From: Deltaproteobacteria bacterium
GTDB lineage: Bacteria > Desulfobacterota > Binatia > UBA12015
Reading direction: 5' to 3'
DNA length: 41,361 nucleotides
Assembly (NCBI GenBank): GCA_016874795.1
Contig: VGTG01000039.1
Location: forward strand, 1 to 41,361
Shown: positions 1-33,715 of the stretch, in pieces
How positions within the stretch are numbered: the stretch's first letter is position 1
How the letters are laid out: each line of letters starts with the position of its first letter
Notes under the pieces: generated by a model
What the model saw: the letters and a program-made list of their open reading frames with translations, nothing else
Databases searched by the model: none
What the model was told of the DNA's origin: nothing
Position numbers and translations under genes: made by a program

Positions 1-126
1 GCTTCTCCCTCCGGGCTCCTCGACGTACTGTTCAAGTACGCCTGCGTCGCCCTCCGGTCCGAGGCTCGCGAATCTTCGGCACTCTCGACCGCCTCGCGAC
101 GTGATCTGGTGAGAAATGCAGGCTAG
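1..126 (-). repeat. 186-bp inverted-repeat element, copy 1 (cut by window edge)
   Basis: These bases are the reverse complement of the first 126 bases of the two full copies at 4166-4351 and 17851-18036, with no mismatch that I could find. The intact end lies at 103-126 and carries the terminal repeat (ending TGCAGGCTAG). The other end lies outside the window. The element carries no transposase, and short open frames inside it are not genes. It sits 25 bp beyond the 3' end of the hydrolase gene. Identity among copies implies recent spread or strong constraint. Confidence 0.9.
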
Positions 127-4057: not shown

Positions 4058-4412
4058 TCACGTCGCACGACCGAACGTATGATACGCGAAGACGAAGTTC
4101 GCCTCGCCGTACACGTATCCACCGGGCTTCAGCACCTCGTGGATCTGCGCTGCCACCTCGAACGACTAGCCTGCATTTCTCACCAGATCACGTCGCGAGG
4201 CGGTCGAGAGTGCCGAAGATTCGCGAGCCTCGGACCGGAGGGCGACGCAGGCGTACTTGAACAGTACGTCGAGGAGCCCGGAGGGAGAAGCTCGCGAAGA
4301 TTCGGTGCTATCGGCCGCCGCAGTAGGGATCTGGTGAGAAATGCAGGCTAGCGCAGGTGCTCGAGCACCGCGAGCGCGAAGAAGAAGTCGACGGTACCGC
4401 CCGCAGACGAGC
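4058..4412 (-). pseudogene. SAM-dependent methyltransferase remnant split by the 186-bp element
   Basis: Read on the minus strand, about 4409-4352 encodes AGGTVDFFFALAVLEHLR, the motif-II/III region of a class I (Methyltransf_11-like) enzyme. The 186-bp element follows. Then 4165-4058 encodes SFEVAAQIHEVLKPGGYVYGEANFVFAYHTFGRAT and a stop, which is the expected continuation (EIHRVLKPGG block). If the element and one copy of CTAG are removed, the two halves stay in the same frame, with only the TAG of the target as an in-frame stop, at the place where relatives carry one residue. The N-terminal SAM-binding part cannot be found between here and 4530. The gene is therefore both interrupted and truncated. 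Confidence 0.7.
4166..4351 (+). repeat. 186-bp inverted-repeat element, copy 2 (MITE-like)
   Basis: The copy is complete and identical to 17851-18036. The first 24 bases (CTAGCCTGCATTTCTCACCA plus GATC) are the exact reverse complement of the last 24. A second, imperfect inverted pair lies inside (element positions 35-63 against 125-153, about 23 of 29 matching), and a small hairpin (CGTACT/AGTACG around TGAAC) marks the centre. The decamer CGAAGATTCG occurs twice in direct orientation. CTAG at both ends suggests a duplicated four-base target, as with IS5-type YTAR targets. It lies inside a methyltransferase relic. Confidence 0.93.
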
Positions 4413-6089: not shown

Positions 6090-8792
6090 TCAGCGCTCGA
6101 TGCCGCCGAGGCCGAGGAGCTCGAAGGCGCGCGGCACCGATGCGTCGAGCAGGTTCCCGACGCGGCAGCGATGATCGCGCACGAGGCACTCCGCGACGTC
6201 GCTCGACGAGGCGAGAGCGGGCACGCCGAGAGCCTCGCAGTAGGTCGCGACGGCGCCGTGCCCGAGACCGTTCTCGTCGAGCAGGTCGGCGGGATCGCCC
6301 GTGCACGCCGCGGCGATCGCGGCGATCCCCTTCGCGGCGGGACCCTTCGGCCCCTCGAGCTTCTCCTCGAGCTTCGCGCACTTCGCTTCGGCCTTCGGGA
6401 GGCACTTCGGGTCCGCCGGCTTCTGCTGGACGCACTTCGTGACCGCGGCGATGCAGCCGTTCAGCGCGACGAGGTCCTGCTGCACGAGGCTCGCGGCGGC
6501 CTTGTCGATCGCCTTCTCGCACTTGCCGAGCGTCTTGCCGTCCGCGGGGTCGCCGAGGCCTTGGCCGCCACCGTCCGCACCCGCGATCGCACACGCGTAC
6601 GCCGAAGGGTCGACGCCCGCGAGCTCGAGAAGCTCTCGCCCACGCGTCGCCGGCACTCCGAGGAGGAGGTCCGCTTCACAGGCTTGACGGCGGAGGAGAC
6701 ACGTCGTCACGTCCGCGATCGAGTCGAGCTCCTCGACGCCGACGGCGGCGCAGGCCGACGCCTCCGCGACGAAGCCGAGACCGGCGACGGCCGTCAAGTC
6801 TTCAGGCGTGGAGTCGAAGACGGCGCAGGACTTCGCGACGTCGCTCGTCACCTTCGCTTCGAGACCGGCGATCGCGCCGGCGGCCTTCGCGCACTTCGTG
6901 CTCGCACCCTCGAGGCACGACGCCTTCCCGGGCGAGAGCTGCAGGCACTTCTGCACGCCGGCGATGCAGCCGAGGAGGAGCTTCTGCTTCTTCCCGGCGA
7001 AGGACGCAGCAGCCTTGCCGAGCTTCTGCTGGCAGGTGACGAGCGCCTTCCCACGATTTGGGTCCGCGAGGCCCGCGCCCGCGCCGTCCGCGCGTGCCGG
7101 GCAGTCCGGGTCGTCGCGGTCGACGGGGGTGTCGCCGTCGTCGTCGATGCAGTTGCCGCAAACCTCCCCGGGGCCCGGCGTCGGAGTCGGGGTCGGGGTC
7201 GCCGTGGGTGTGGCTGTAGGAGTAGGAGTGGGAGTCGGTGTCGGAGTGGGAGTCGGTGTCGGAGTGGGAGTCGGTGTCGGAGTGGGAGTCGGTGTCGGAG
7301 TGGGAGTCGGTGTCGGAGTGGGAGTGGGTGTGGGAGTCGGCGTCGGTGTCGCGGTCGGCGTCGGTGTCGCGGTCGGCGTGGGCGTCGGTGTGGCCGGCAC
7401 GCCGCAGGTCGCGTTCACGAGATCCGACCCGAGGAGCCACGGGCTGAACGTCACGTTCGTTCCGACGGAATCACCGCTCCCCGGTCCCTGCCCCGAGGGG
7501 CCGCTCGCGCTGCCCCACCAGTTGCACGTCGCATCGGCGAGCGTCGCGGCGCGGTTCGTCAATCCCGTCGTGTTGCCGGCGATCGAGTTCCGCCGGATCT
7601 GCGTGCTCGCCGATCCCGCCTGCGGAGCGATGTCGATGCCGACGTTCGCGCCGCTGACCGTGTTGCCGGTCACGGTCGAGCCGGTGCTCGCGCGGCGGAG
7701 ATAGATGCCGGTCGTGTTCGCGCCGCCGACGCTCGTCACGACGTTGTCGGTGATCTGCGATCCGGGATCGCTCGCGATGCCCGCCTCGCGGGCGCCGATG
7801 ATCGTGTTCCGCCGGATGATCGCCCCCGTCGCCAGCCCGACGTAGATGCCGTAGTTCGCGGCGCGGGTCGGGTTCTCGATCGTGTTGTCCTCGATCGTCG
7901 AACCGACGGAGGGACCGAAGCTCCCGATCAGCGAGATCGCGTCGAAGGAAGCGGCCCCCTTGATGCAGTTTCCGCTGATCAGGCACCCGTCGCAGCCGCC
8001 GACCAGGATCGGGTCGGAGGATCCGGTGTGGCCGTCCCAGGAGTTGTCCGTGATCATCGCACCGGTCCAGACGAGGATCGACAAGCCGGCCCCCGTCGTG
8101 TTCCGGTACGTGTTCGAGTCGAGAGTGAAGGTTGCGGACCCGCGATCGCCCTGCATCTGCACGCCGGTCTTCCCACCTTTGAAGAAGTTGCCGACGACGG
8201 CGAAGCTCGAAGCGTTCGCGCCGGTGCTCGACGCGACCGCGATGTTCATGGCGGAGAAGATGTTGTTCTCGACCGTGACGTCCGCGGCGATGCCCGTCAC
8301 GGTCGATCCGTTGACGATCACGCCGGTCGAGACCGCGATCGACATGCCGACGGTCTTCTCGATGAAGGTGAAGCCGTCGACGACGACCTCCGACTCGATC
8401 CCCGTGATGAAGAACCCCGTGTTCGACTGCACGATCGACTCGGTCGTCGAATCCGTCGGATCGCGCAGGAGCGGATCCATGCCGGCCTGCGCGCCGAGGA
8501 GCGTCATGCTCTTCTTCACCTCGGTGAAGTTCGGGTTGTAGAGCCCCGGCGCGACGCGGACGGTGCCCCCGGTCGTGACCGTGTCGGCGGCCTTCTGCAG
8601 CGTCTTGAACGCGTCGGCGGCGGAGGTGCCGTGGTTCACCGCGTCGTCGCCATTGACGGCGTCGACGAAGCACTCGGTGGTGCAATCGCCCGGGGCGGCG
8701 TCGGCGCGCGTCGCGGCCGTCGCGCTGGCCAGCGCCAAGACCGCGCAAGCCGTGACGAACACGAGCGGGAAGGAAGACCGGAGTTGCTGCAC
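6090..8792 (-). CDS. Exported parallel beta-helix protein with Thr-Pro linker and two Cys-rich domains
   Basis: The 900-residue product starts at GTG 8792 (GGAGGG about ten bases upstream) with a signal peptide (residues 1-33, ending TRADA). Residues 35-440 are right-handed beta-helix (NosD/pectate-lyase-like) with repeated turns such as VTVENNIFSA, STIEDNTIEN and AIIRRNTIIG. Residues about 465-540 are almost pure Thr-Pro. A short acidic segment (CIDDDGDTPVDRDDPDCP) follows. The C-terminus holds two copies, about residues 575-725 and 726-895, of a Cys-rich helical domain, each starting GL(A/G)DP and containing KC..(K/A)...C(I)A.V.KC. It is probably an adhesive or surface carbohydrate-associated protein; no catalytic residues can be assigned. 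Confidence 0.85.
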   Translation of the reverse strand: MQQLRSSFPLVFVTACAVLALASATAATRADAAPGDCTTECFVDAVNGDDAVNHGTSAADAFKTLQKAADTVTTGGTVRVAPGLYNPNFTEVKKSMTLLGAQAGMDPLLRDPTDSTTESIVQSNTGFFITGIESEVVVDGFTFIEKTVGMSIAVSTGVIVNGSTVTGIAADVTVENNIFSAMNIAVASSTGANASSFAVVGNFFKGGKTGVQMQGDRGSATFTLDSNTYRNTTGAGLSILVWTGAMITDNSWDGHTGSSDPILVGGCDGCLISGNCIKGAASFDAISLIGSFGPSVGSTIEDNTIENPTRAANYGIYVGLATGAIIRRNTIIGAREAGIASDPGSQITDNVVTSVGGANTTGIYLRRASTGSTVTGNTVSGANVGIDIAPQAGSASTQIRRNSIAGNTTGLTNRAATLADATCNWWGSASGPSGQGPGSGDSVGTNVTFSPWLLGSDLVNATCGVPATPTPTPTATPTPTATPTPTPTPTPTPTPTPTPTPTPTPTPTPTPTPTPTPTPTPTPTPTATPTATPTPTPTPGPGEVCGNCIDDDGDTPVDRDDPDCPARADGAGAGLADPNRGKALVTCQQKLGKAAASFAGKKQKLLLGCIAGVQKCLQLSPGKASCLEGASTKCAKAAGAIAGLEAKVTSDVAKSCAVFDSTPEDLTAVAGLGFVAEASACAAVGVEELDSIADVTTCLLRRQACEADLLLGVPATRGRELLELAGVDPSAYACAIAGADGGGQGLGDPADGKTLGKCEKAIDKAAASLVQQDLVALNGCIAAVTKCVQQKPADPKCLPKAEAKCAKLEEKLEGPKGPAAKGIAAIAAACTGDPADLLDENGLGHGAVATYCEALGVPALASSSDVAECLVRDHRCRVGNLLDASVPRAFELLGLGGIER
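7225..7314. repeat. Five perfect 18-bp tandem repeats coding for the Thr-Pro linker
   Basis: The plus-strand unit GGAGTGGGAGTCGGTGTC occurs five times without change at 7225, 7243, 7261, 7279 and 7297, inside a wider degenerate Thr-Pro coding stretch of about 7180-7400. Each unit encodes six residues (three Thr-Pro pairs), so changes in copy number keep the frame and only alter linker length. Exact identity, including third bases, points to recent slippage or recombination. Confidence 0.9.
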
Positions 8793-17850: not shown

Positions 17851-18036
17851 CTAGCCTGCATTTCTCACCAGATCACGTCGCGAGGCGGTCGAGAGTGCCG
17901 AAGATTCGCGAGCCTCGGACCGGAGGGCGACGCAGGCGTACTTGAACAGTACGTCGAGGAGCCCGGAGGGAGAAGCTCGCGAAGATTCGGTGCTATCGGC
18001 CGCCGCAGTAGGGATCTGGTGAGAAATGCAGGCTAG
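17851..18036 (+). repeat. 186-bp inverted-repeat element, copy 3 (MITE-like)
   Basis: The copy is full length and identical over its 186 bp to 4166-4351, in the same orientation. It is bounded by CTAG on both sides and has exact 24-bp terminal inverted repeats. It sits between the divergent protease and hexosaminidase genes, in the upstream region of both. It could bring a promoter, a terminator or a processed RNA structure to either gene. The remaining 109 bp to the hexosaminidase start holds nothing I recognise. Confidence 0.93.
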
Positions 18037-24435: not shown

Positions 24436-24518
24436 GGGGTCCGGTTCGATAGGGCGCATCTGCACCCAGGCTCGGCGAAGGAGCCTGGGTGCAGATGCGC
24501 CCTATCGAACCGGACCCC
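24436..24518. terminator. Perfect 38-bp inverted repeat, probable bidirectional terminator
   Basis: Bases 24436-24473 (GGGGTCCGGTTCGATAGGGC ...) and 24481-24518 are exact reverse complements, with a seven-base loop GGCGAAG. The stem begins one base after the stop of the glyoxalase-like gene, and its right arm contains the last codons and stop of the convergent glycosyltransferase gene. The right arm is followed by only TT, and the stem is far longer than usual for intrinsic terminators, so another role such as a structured repeat cannot be excluded. Confidence 0.8.
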
Positions 24519-32296: not shown

Positions 32297-33616
32297 ATGT
32301 CCACCGCTCTCGAACAGGTTCGCGCCCGGGTCGCCTCGCAAAGGACACTGCTGCCGTCGCTCTACGGTGCGATCGACTTCGACCGCATGCCGGAGCGCTT
32401 CACCGAGGACGCGTCCAAGGCGATCGTCAAGGACCGCGCGCCGATGGGCGTCGCGATGACCGACTACGAGCTCGAGCTCGTCCGCGCCTACACGATGCTC
32501 GGGGACATCGTCGCCGATGCGTACGCGGCGCTGATCCCGACGTACGGGCATCGGCGCTTGATCGACATGCTCCGCGAGGCCTGCGACCGCGGCGTCGAGA
32601 AGGTCGAGGGGGCGCCACCCGAGCTCATCGCGTTCATTCGCGACATGGAGCGCATCCCGGAGTGGGTCGACATGGACCTCGTGCGCGAAGGCGCGCGGCT
32701 CGACCTGAACGTCACCGCCAACGTCCAGCCGTACGCGATCCGCGGCGCGTTCATCGCGACGTTCCTGAACAAGTACTCGGCGCTGCCGATGGCGCTGACG
32801 GGCACGTTGAGCAACGAGACCGCCGCACGGCGTGTCCGCGAGACGGCGCACTTCTTCGCCTGCACCGTGCTGCCCGGTGCGCTCGATCGCTTCGGCGAGG
32901 GCTTCAAAGCCGCGGCGATGGTCCGGCTCATGCACTCCATGGTGCGCGTGAACGTGCTCGGGTCCGGCCGCTGGGATCCCGCGGTCTACGGCGTGCCGAT
33001 CCCGCAGGTCGACCAGATGCCGGCCGGCCTGATCCCGATCTTCCTCCTCGCCTTCCGGATGCTGGGCGAGGGACGGCGCGAGTTCACGCCGGGCGAGCGC
33101 GCGCAGGTCGAGCTGGCGCGGTACCGCTGCTTCCTGCTCGGCCTGCCCGAGGATCTCCTCGCCGATACGGCCGAGGGCATCGTCCGCATGATGACCGCGC
33201 GGAACACGACGCTCCGCGAGAGCTTCGACGACGAGACGTGCGGCTCGCTGATCCGCGCGACGCTCTCCGCGTACCTGCCGCAGGACAAGAGCCTCTTGAA
33301 TCAGGTCTACGACCAGCTCGAGCGCCGCTTCGCGAAGCTGATCTTCGTCCAGCACTTCCTCGGCGGCGACCGCGACCTCTCGGCGAAGATCGGCATCGAG
33401 ATCGGGACGGACGACGTCGTCGTCGGCTCGCTCGTCGGCGCGGGGATCGCCCTGCAGATGAAGGCCTTCGACCTCGCGGAGTGGATCCCGGGCGTGCGCG
33501 ACGTCGCGACCGCGATCCTGGTGAAGCGCGTCGAGCAGCAGATCGCGAGCTACGGGCGCGCGCGCTTCACGACGGACGCTTCGAAGTACCGGCCGACCTC
33601 CGCGGCCGCGGCCTGA
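32297..33616 (+). CDS. MpaB/Lcp-like haem oxygenase family protein (DUF2236)
   Basis: The 439-residue product is mainly helical and matches the DUF2236 group, which includes latex-clearing protein and fungal MpaB. Useful blocks are PLAN-like ANVQPYAIRGAFIATFLN, RVRETAHFFACTVLPGALDRFGEGFKAAAMVRLMHSMVRVNVL near residue 200 (the R-x-x-H segment that holds the haem ligand region) and LGLPEDLLADTAEGIVRMM. Members bind haem b and cleave or oxidise isoprenoid substrates. There is no signal peptide. The final residues run into the first unit of a tandem repeat, and the P450 gene converges from the other side. Confidence 0.82.
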   Translation: MSTALEQVRARVASQRTLLPSLYGAIDFDRMPERFTEDASKAIVKDRAPMGVAMTDYELELVRAYTMLGDIVADAYAALIPTYGHRRLIDMLREACDRGVEKVEGAPPELIAFIRDMERIPEWVDMDLVREGARLDLNVTANVQPYAIRGAFIATFLNKYSALPMALTGTLSNETAARRVRETAHFFACTVLPGALDRFGEGFKAAAMVRLMHSMVRVNVLGSGRWDPAVYGVPIPQVDQMPAGLIPIFLLAFRMLGEGRREFTPGERAQVELARYRCFLLGLPEDLLADTAEGIVRMMTARNTTLRESFDDETCGSLIRATLSAYLPQDKSLLNQVYDQLERRFAKLIFVQHFLGGDRDLSAKIGIEIGTDDVVVGSLVGAGIALQMKAFDLAEWIPGVRDVATAILVKRVEQQIASYGRARFTTDASKYRPTSAAAA

Positions 33617-33715
33617 GGCGGCTCGAGCCGCTCCGCCGCCGACGCCTGAGGCGACTCGAGCCGCTCCACCGCGGCCGCCGCCTGAGGCGGCTCGAGCGGC
33701 TCCGCCGCCGACGCC
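33611..33715. repeat. Three tandem ~33-36-bp units between convergent oxidoreductase genes
   Basis: Units start with GCCTGAGGCG at 33611, 33644 and 33680. Each contains CTCGAGC(C/G)GCTCC and a GCCGCCG tail, and GGCTCGAGCC is itself palindromic. The first unit contains the stop codon of the MpaB-like gene, and the array ends three bases before the stop of the P450 gene. The folded RNA may act as a two-way terminator. Confidence 0.75.

Follow-up and report, generated by a model that had tools for sequence, protein, structure and literature searches.

The 186-bp element at positions 17851–18036 is a genuine MITE that has amplified recently and has ends of IS1380 type; it is one of a wider group in which the folded body seems to predate the ends. 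Its copy number is high, its ends and its CTAG target can be read from the sequence, it often stands directly behind genes, and its interior has a covarying fold, favours one strand and recurs on ends of two types. The MITE part is ordinary; what is new is the body – conserved, re-ended and strand-biased. We consider it likely that the element is a type II MITE and that its folded body has acquired new ends by passing between the IS1380 and IS5 transposase families. A bolder reading, which we put forward tentatively, is that the body is an undescribed strand-specific folded RNA module and itself the replicating lineage, which would have crossed at least four phyla by switching TIRs (IS1380, IS5, perhaps others) with a common CTAG target, its RNA aiding the spread of the element or its tolerance. 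Going by record titles, the phyla concerned would be Acidobacteriota, Pseudomonadota, Nitrospirota and Eisenbacteria, besides the class of the host genome itself; a function of the folded body is unproven.

The element and its copies

The window, meaning the whole stretch of DNA analysed (41,361 nt), contains three copies. The complete one at 17851–18036, on the forward (core-sense) strand, measures 186 bp including the CTAG at both ends and scores 172.8 bits with the covariance model R1 discussed below; an identical second one lies on the same strand at 4166–4351, inside a gene remnant on the reverse strand that is SAM-methyltransferase-like by motifs picked out by eye rather than by family search. 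The third (1–126, reverse strand) retains 126 of the 186 bp and corresponds, in reverse complement, to bases 1–126 of the other two, the rest being lost at the contig end; because the window is the whole of contig C39, this copy is one cut by the contig end and not a truncated element. These relationships, reported in an earlier note on this DNA, were confirmed by direct comparison. The 24-bp TIRs described there have the right length for the perfect inverted repeat, but the TIR proper is only 20 bp long, the remainder being CTAG, a palindromic target site.

From left to right, the copy at 17851–18036 comprises the first CTAG (17851–17854), with YTAR-like counterparts flanking relatives and IS1380 copies; the left TIR (17855–17874, forward strand); the left box CGTCGCGAG (17876–17884, forward); the core hairpin GCAGGCGTAC...GTACGTCGAG (17932–17958, forward); the right box CGCAGTAG (18004–18011, forward); the right TIR (18013–18032, reverse); and the second CTAG (18033–18036). 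Both boxes are conserved across phyla.

The earlier note had looked to a genome-wide search for further copies, and this finds about 115–120 of them dispersed through the 6.27-Mb genome, many more than chance would give, as judged by end counts: the 24-mer end occurs 115 + 115 times (the reversed pattern 0 + 0) and the inner 15-mer, which excludes CTAG, 119 + 120 times, so that at least 230 of 239 ends bear CTAG. The copies are uniform: 40 of 257 candidates from the host genome were scored, all of them 100% identical over 186 bp, and of 40 distinct copies in the loci read, 30 of which had been picked beforehand for identity, 38 are identical, one has a single difference and one has 16. The exact 15-mer is present in two of 98 genomes searched, the host being one, and absent from three congeners and 10 further family members; R1 picks out a distant 112-bp relative in one congener (G002). 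Plasmid records gave no match to the element, and viral contigs none (0) to its 19-mer end. By its size of 186 bp, lack of coding capacity, perfect 20-bp TIRs and dispersed copies, the element is a MITE, and the proposal that it moves in trans is well supported by its copy number, the absence of its end from congeners, the interrupted repeat described below and the autonomous IS elements found elsewhere.

Two other repeats of the window lie in open frames: tandem 6-, 12- and 18-bp GGAGTCGGTGTC-type repeats within a long one (7165–7410), and a 50-bp direct repeat present three times at a spacing of 33–36 bp (33597–33715).

Target site and ends

Insertion can be read from locus L014, where a MITE copy with CTAG on both sides interrupts an 80–85-bp palindromic repeat, whereas in 13 other copies of that repeat (12 chosen from similarity matches and one from the window) the sequence runs on unbroken with a single site, CCAG or similar; set against these paralogues, L014 shows a target-site duplication. 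The empty site suggested as a check in the earlier note is thereby provided in paralogous form, but not in orthologous form: a comparison of six sites with 15 relatives showed none, its single match past a junction being weak and passing it by a few bases (G006, query 704–762, 59 bp, E 7e-4), and the other matches listed outside the host genome ending short of the junction. The interrupted repeat belongs to a family with ends of about GGGGTCCGGTTCG, conserved arms, variable loops and more than 12 copies in the genome; its member in the window (24436–24518) is a perfect palindrome with 38-bp arms.

Among 69 relatives – elements of 100–320 bp excised by their TIRs from loci outside the host genome – the 4-bp flanks are identical in 26, and CTAG in 23 of those 26; as CTAG is its own complement, these 23 pairs cannot prove duplication, and the informative pairs are CTGG/CTGG, CTAA/CTAA and TTAA/TTAA in three of the 69. 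CTAG is strongly avoided: base composition predicts 118 in the window, which has 10, five of them within element copies. Extrapolating from 128 kb of partly overlapping sequence that mostly flanks copies gives about 1,125 further sites for the genome, and the share of CTAG sites that are occupied would be, very roughly, one in ten.

Many copies sit at the ends of genes. A coding-like frame, defined statistically (by length and GC by codon position) and not by gene annotation, ends exactly on the TAG of a flanking CTAG in 13 of 29 testable copies, compared with 1 of 58 in a phase-shift control; in these cases the insertion rebuilds the stop codon. In none of the 29 does such a frame run through the insertion site. 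A small control of 12 other CTAG sites had a frame ending on TAG in two and one site inside a coding-like frame, so that the distribution of surviving CTAG sites may by itself account for the placement. In six copies a frame ends to the left of the element and in nine to the right (two copies being counted twice), which speaks against a role bound to a single gene strand; the copy at 17851–18036 shows no promoter- or terminator-like pattern. At a further locus (L303, 190–1503), a gene that by eye resembles a group II intron reverse transcriptase ends at the CTAG with which an IS5-type element starts.

From the CTAG flanks, the earlier note had guessed at an IS5-type element with a YTAR target. 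The target was right, and CTAG/YTAR flanks also surround IS1380 copies in other genomes; the family was not, the ends being of IS1380 type. An origin of the MITE ends from IS5 or IS701 was considered and rejected: PF13546 has 0 matches in the genome, the TIR fits IS1380, and the two IS5-type elements with CTAG flanks that were read end in CAGGCTGCTGAAAAA, unlike the MITE TIRs.

The search for an IS with the same ends, also proposed there, found autonomous IS1380 elements with such TIRs in other genomes. Scanning genomes for CTAGCCTGCATTTCTCACC gave at least 82 stretches, which among the matches listed come from MAGs of Acidobacteria (Bryobacterales, Thermoanaerobaculia), Verrucomicrobia, Gammaproteobacteria, Eisenbacteria, Nitrospira, Planctomycetota and others. 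The transposase profile PF13701 matched in only 13 of 31 genomes (30 with CTAGCCTGCATTTCTCACC stretches, plus G051). Eight of its matches are near full length, and four of these eight have MITE-type TIRs at both ends with at most four mismatches (L149, L151, L152 and L162; 489–522 bits), flanked by CTAG/CTAG in L162 and L152, CTAA/CTAA in L151 and CTAG/CTGA in L149. L150, likewise near full length, has a single TIR, and no TIR pair was found for L155, L156 and L164 (108–178 bits). The transposase of L162, from Bryobacterales, is assigned to IS1380 by NF033539 (385 bits; cut-off 180), and the left end of this element matches exactly the first 15 bases of the MITE's left TIR. The MITE thus shares with IS1380 elements (NF033539/PF13701; L149, L151, L152, L162) a TIR of about CCYGSATWTCTCAC and CTAG/YTAR-like flanks, and differs in having no transposase and in a core motif that the IS copies read do not show. 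For an IS1380 element in Paracoccus a direct repeat of 5 bp is reported (PMC3281130), close to the 4 bp seen here.

By PF13701, the host's own assembly, which may miss one, contains no intact IS1380; its sole transposase fragment (L031, 1501–1776; 73.6 bits) has one stop, with no TIR in the locus. Another repeat, whose TIR equals or resembles that of the MITE but whose interior differs (CACCAGGGGTAACG...), occurs at L062 (1–138), at the end of L063 and at L148 (1501–1638). It runs into the ends of contigs C70, C230 and C53, in the last case abutting a MITE copy with a single CTAG between them; as it meets three contig ends, an autonomous partner could be concealed in assembly gaps. What look like further reduced forms are elements of about 73 bp in Verrucomicrobia that have the MITE TIR (L065, L086, L100, L138) and shorter elements of 51–67 bp (L081, L103, L124, L141).

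A folded interior on two types of ends

The lengths of the 69 relatives peak at 176–177 bp (23 of 69). In elements of different phyla, a core of the form GCAGGCRTA-hairpin-TAYGTYGAG starts near position 76, and most aligned elements outside Bryobacterales have, with small changes, the left box CGTMGCGAG and the right box CGCAGTAG. Longer variants of 201, 213 and 223 bp have extra stretches in the arms, including a hairpin in the 213-bp ones.

The 186-bp element itself has a predicted RNA fold of -127.9 kcal/mol, against -67.5 +/- 3.9 for shuffled sequences (z -15.4; equalled by 0 of 200 shuffles). In a MAFFT alignment of 11 standard-length elements chosen for their length and a recognisable core, RNAalifold proposes 60 pairs, for which 89.6% of 657 cells can pair, compared with 33–45% when the partner is slid – a control that favours the structure, as the same alignment supplied both structure and test. 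Across these 11 elements, 36 pairs have changed on both sides, giving a covariation score of 0.483 that was reached by 0 of 500 shuffles. Some elements with this TIR lack a clear core (e.g. L072, L068, L098) and stand outside the alignment. The earlier note had expected folding as RNA or DNA; the data go further, in that the fold is conserved, covarying and strand-biased. A match to a conserved RNA family, there named as grounds for reclassification, was not found: Rfam 15 has 0 matches in the window at the gathering score, and 21 loci searched at relaxed thresholds gave just three matches, each below its cut-off. Twelve unrelated palindromes of the host genome gave no R1 match up to E 10.

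Applied to 148 genomes of the class, R1 finds matches in 36, the host included, many of them partial and confined to model positions 34–153. Fourteen elements aligned by R1 over their whole length end mostly in CCYGCATTTCTCACC-like sequences, with CCCGGATTATTCAYGA- or CCCGGATTATGCATA-like ends in L216, L217, L219 and L220, CAGGCTGCTGAAAAAC in L218 and GGAGTCTGTCCGAGTAAC in L222; nine of the 14 are flanked by CTAG on both sides and 12 on at least one. The partial matches form a second group lacking the IS1380-type TIR. Three of its members (L233, L236, L237) match CAGGCTGCTGAAAAA with at most one mismatch, at one end or at both; the ends of three others (L224, L225, L229) are not of IS5 type.

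The clearest case of a full-length body on IS5-type ends is L218, in which the whole body of about 175 bp (R1 103.3 bits) lies between CAGGCTGCTGAAAAA ends with CTAG on both sides. L316 (148 bp; R1 E 5.3e-8) and L312 (151 bp; 9.4e-5) also have CAGGCTGCTGAAAAA-type ends and CTAG on both sides. By R1, these three elements share the structured module with the MITE, as they do the CTAG flanks, and differ in their TIR and in the transposase family that it implies, the last two also in length; L299 (191 bp) has IS5-type ends and CTAG on both sides with no R1 match. Autonomous elements with CAGGCTGCTGAAAAA-type ends are L303 (CTAG/CTAG) and L292 (CTAG/TTAG), whose second ends agree within three mismatches and which encode IS5-family transposases (NF033581, 244 and 297 bits; cut-off 140).

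Because the second group had itself been found with R1, the kinship was also tested in reverse, with a covariance model (R2) built from nine of its members, all without IS1380-type TIRs. R2 recognises the window copies (56.0 bits, E 7.4e-11), where the module common to elements with other ends spans 17882–18006 on the forward strand, and scores below 1e-3 in eight of 11 other first-group loci, with L096 at 0.0096 and L105 and L120 missed. Profiles that ignore structure point the same way: at E <= 0.005, A2 picks up 14 of the 15 second-group loci (L238 is at 0.15), and A3, an nhmmer profile, finds the window copies at E 2.8e-5, while on reversed sequences A2 gives nothing and A3 one match at E 0.92. 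In an alignment of 124 columns fitted to R2 (20 and 18 rows), both groups conserve the same base at 37 columns, and at two they conserve different ones. Eight viral loci with an IS5-type end gave no R2 match below E 0.19.

The module also has a direction. With orientation set by the core motif and not by energy, the core-sense strand has the more stable predicted fold of the two in 68 of 69 elements: 40 of 40 in the first group (chosen for a recognisable core, and many from two Bryobacterales genomes), 17 of 17 in the second and, among 12 others, all 11 but L219. The bias agrees in 11 other genomes, counting the host. I3 and Correia palindromes differ between strands by 0–10.9 kcal/mol per 100 nt in mixed directions; in one ERIC copy and some core-less elements the difference is as large as in the module, so that it is the constant direction that counts and not the size of the difference. 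In A2, G–U cells outnumber A–C cells by 74 to 14 (56 to 6 in the inner part), with a structure that was fitted to the sense strand. This bias fits selection on one strand, as RNA or as single-stranded DNA; a constant direction would not be expected from a DNA palindrome alone.

Interpretation and known systems

If selection acts on one strand, the molecule concerned could be single-stranded DNA, for example where exposed on the lagging strand. Since G–T wobble is tolerated in DNA too, strand bias alone cannot separate the two; we nonetheless think DNA a possible but unlikely answer, as IS1380 and IS5 are DDE families, which use double-stranded ends. Rather less probable is an ordinary IS1380-derived MITE with neutral filler inside, its hairpin kept as a DNA palindrome by template switching from arm to arm: palindromic MITEs are common, such correction likewise yields paired changes, the core motif is absent from the IS1380 copies read, and some core-less elements and the ERIC copy equal the module in the size of their strand difference. 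Neutral filler sits poorly, however, with asymmetric boxes and a core that are conserved across phyla (the core also across end types), with a fold direction that is constant where that of I3 and Correia palindromes is mixed, and with the excess of G–U over A–C cells, though the fitting of the structure tempers the last point.

Even less credit is due to a host regulatory or structural RNA – terminator, sRNA or mRNA stabiliser – that became repeated and only secondarily mobile. The covarying, strand-biased fold and the frequent placement directly behind stop codons would suit such an RNA; the more than 100 copies, mostly identical where read, the target-site ends and IS-type TIRs, the absence of the exact end from three congeners, the occurrence in both orientations relative to neighbouring frames and the lack of an Rfam match or terminator pattern speak against it. 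That the identical copies are an artefact of a collapsed short-read graph is very improbable, for although several contigs start or stop some 80–130 bp within a copy, as with graph words of about 127, the 30 copies read have different flanks, and variants with one and 16 differences persist among the 40 distinct copies.

The reading that we prefer is a type II MITE with an exchangeable pair of ends. An IS1380-family DDE transposase would recognise the TIR (CCTGCATTTCTCACC...) in trans and insert the element at CTAG, duplicating 4 bp. CTAG being very rare here and often made up of the last base of a sense codon and a TAG stop, many copies would land directly behind genes with the stop codon rebuilt – a near-harmless site at which copy number could rise. 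The body would be a separate, old module of about 120 nt, folding better on one strand and not a remnant of an IS, carried by at least two types of ends that belong to the unrelated transposase families IS1380 and IS5 with their common CTAG/YTAR target. We infer the donor transposase and the order of end exchange; the selected molecule would be the RNA, which probably acts once transcription from outside reads into the element.

The usual view of a bacterial MITE is of what remains of a single IS in decay. In this case it is the ends that look replaceable and the folded middle that looks conserved, the mark of a satellite that switches between helpers; seen so, it becomes testable whether the middle aids transposition or only lowers harm, and how ends are swapped. 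Insertion at a CTAG that rebuilds a stop codon would offer a simple reason for more than 100 copies in a GC-rich genome, and the covariance models provide a handle for annotating a repeat missing from Rfam. In the literature searched, which leaves subscription papers mostly outside, neither the TIR, the core nor one MITE body with the ends of two IS families is described, and searches with the TIR, core and IS5-type end sequences returned no related title among the matches listed.

Among known repeats, Correia/NEMIS and ERIC resemble the element as long-hairpin repeats of 100–160 bp. Kinship with them was tested and gained no support: R1 gave no match up to E 10 on one ERIC copy and eight Correia loci, and R2 none on the ERIC copy and, in four Correia loci, only E 2.2, outside the element. 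RAYT/REP elements are linked to a Y1 transposase. In PMC3733652 they appear as GTAG/CGTC-tagged palindromes of 20–40 bp, which the size and two-sided YTAR ends of the MITE do not fit.

Other parallels come from MITEs. Long-hairpin MITEs in 3' untranslated regions that give small RNAs, or are possibly cut by RNase III, are known (PMC10969869, PMC2229807, PMC5896051). QMITE2 of Coxiella burnetii, by its description, is similar in size (150–190 bp), in its mainly 3' untranslated or intergenic position and in its predicted fold (-113 kcal/mol), and differs in its direct repeats, which are 7–11 nt long and vary in sequence (PMC5896051). The Chunjie MITE of Geobacter uraniireducens, again by its description, is like the present element in size (178–235 bp), TIRs and direct repeats, and might belong to the same group (PMC10969869). 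Type II MITEs in general, as portrayed in the same source (PMC10969869), share with it a TIR as the only part in common with an autonomous IS, a high copy number and a predicted stable hairpin transcript; what sets the present element apart from them is an interior that is conserved across phyla and carried on more than one family of ends.
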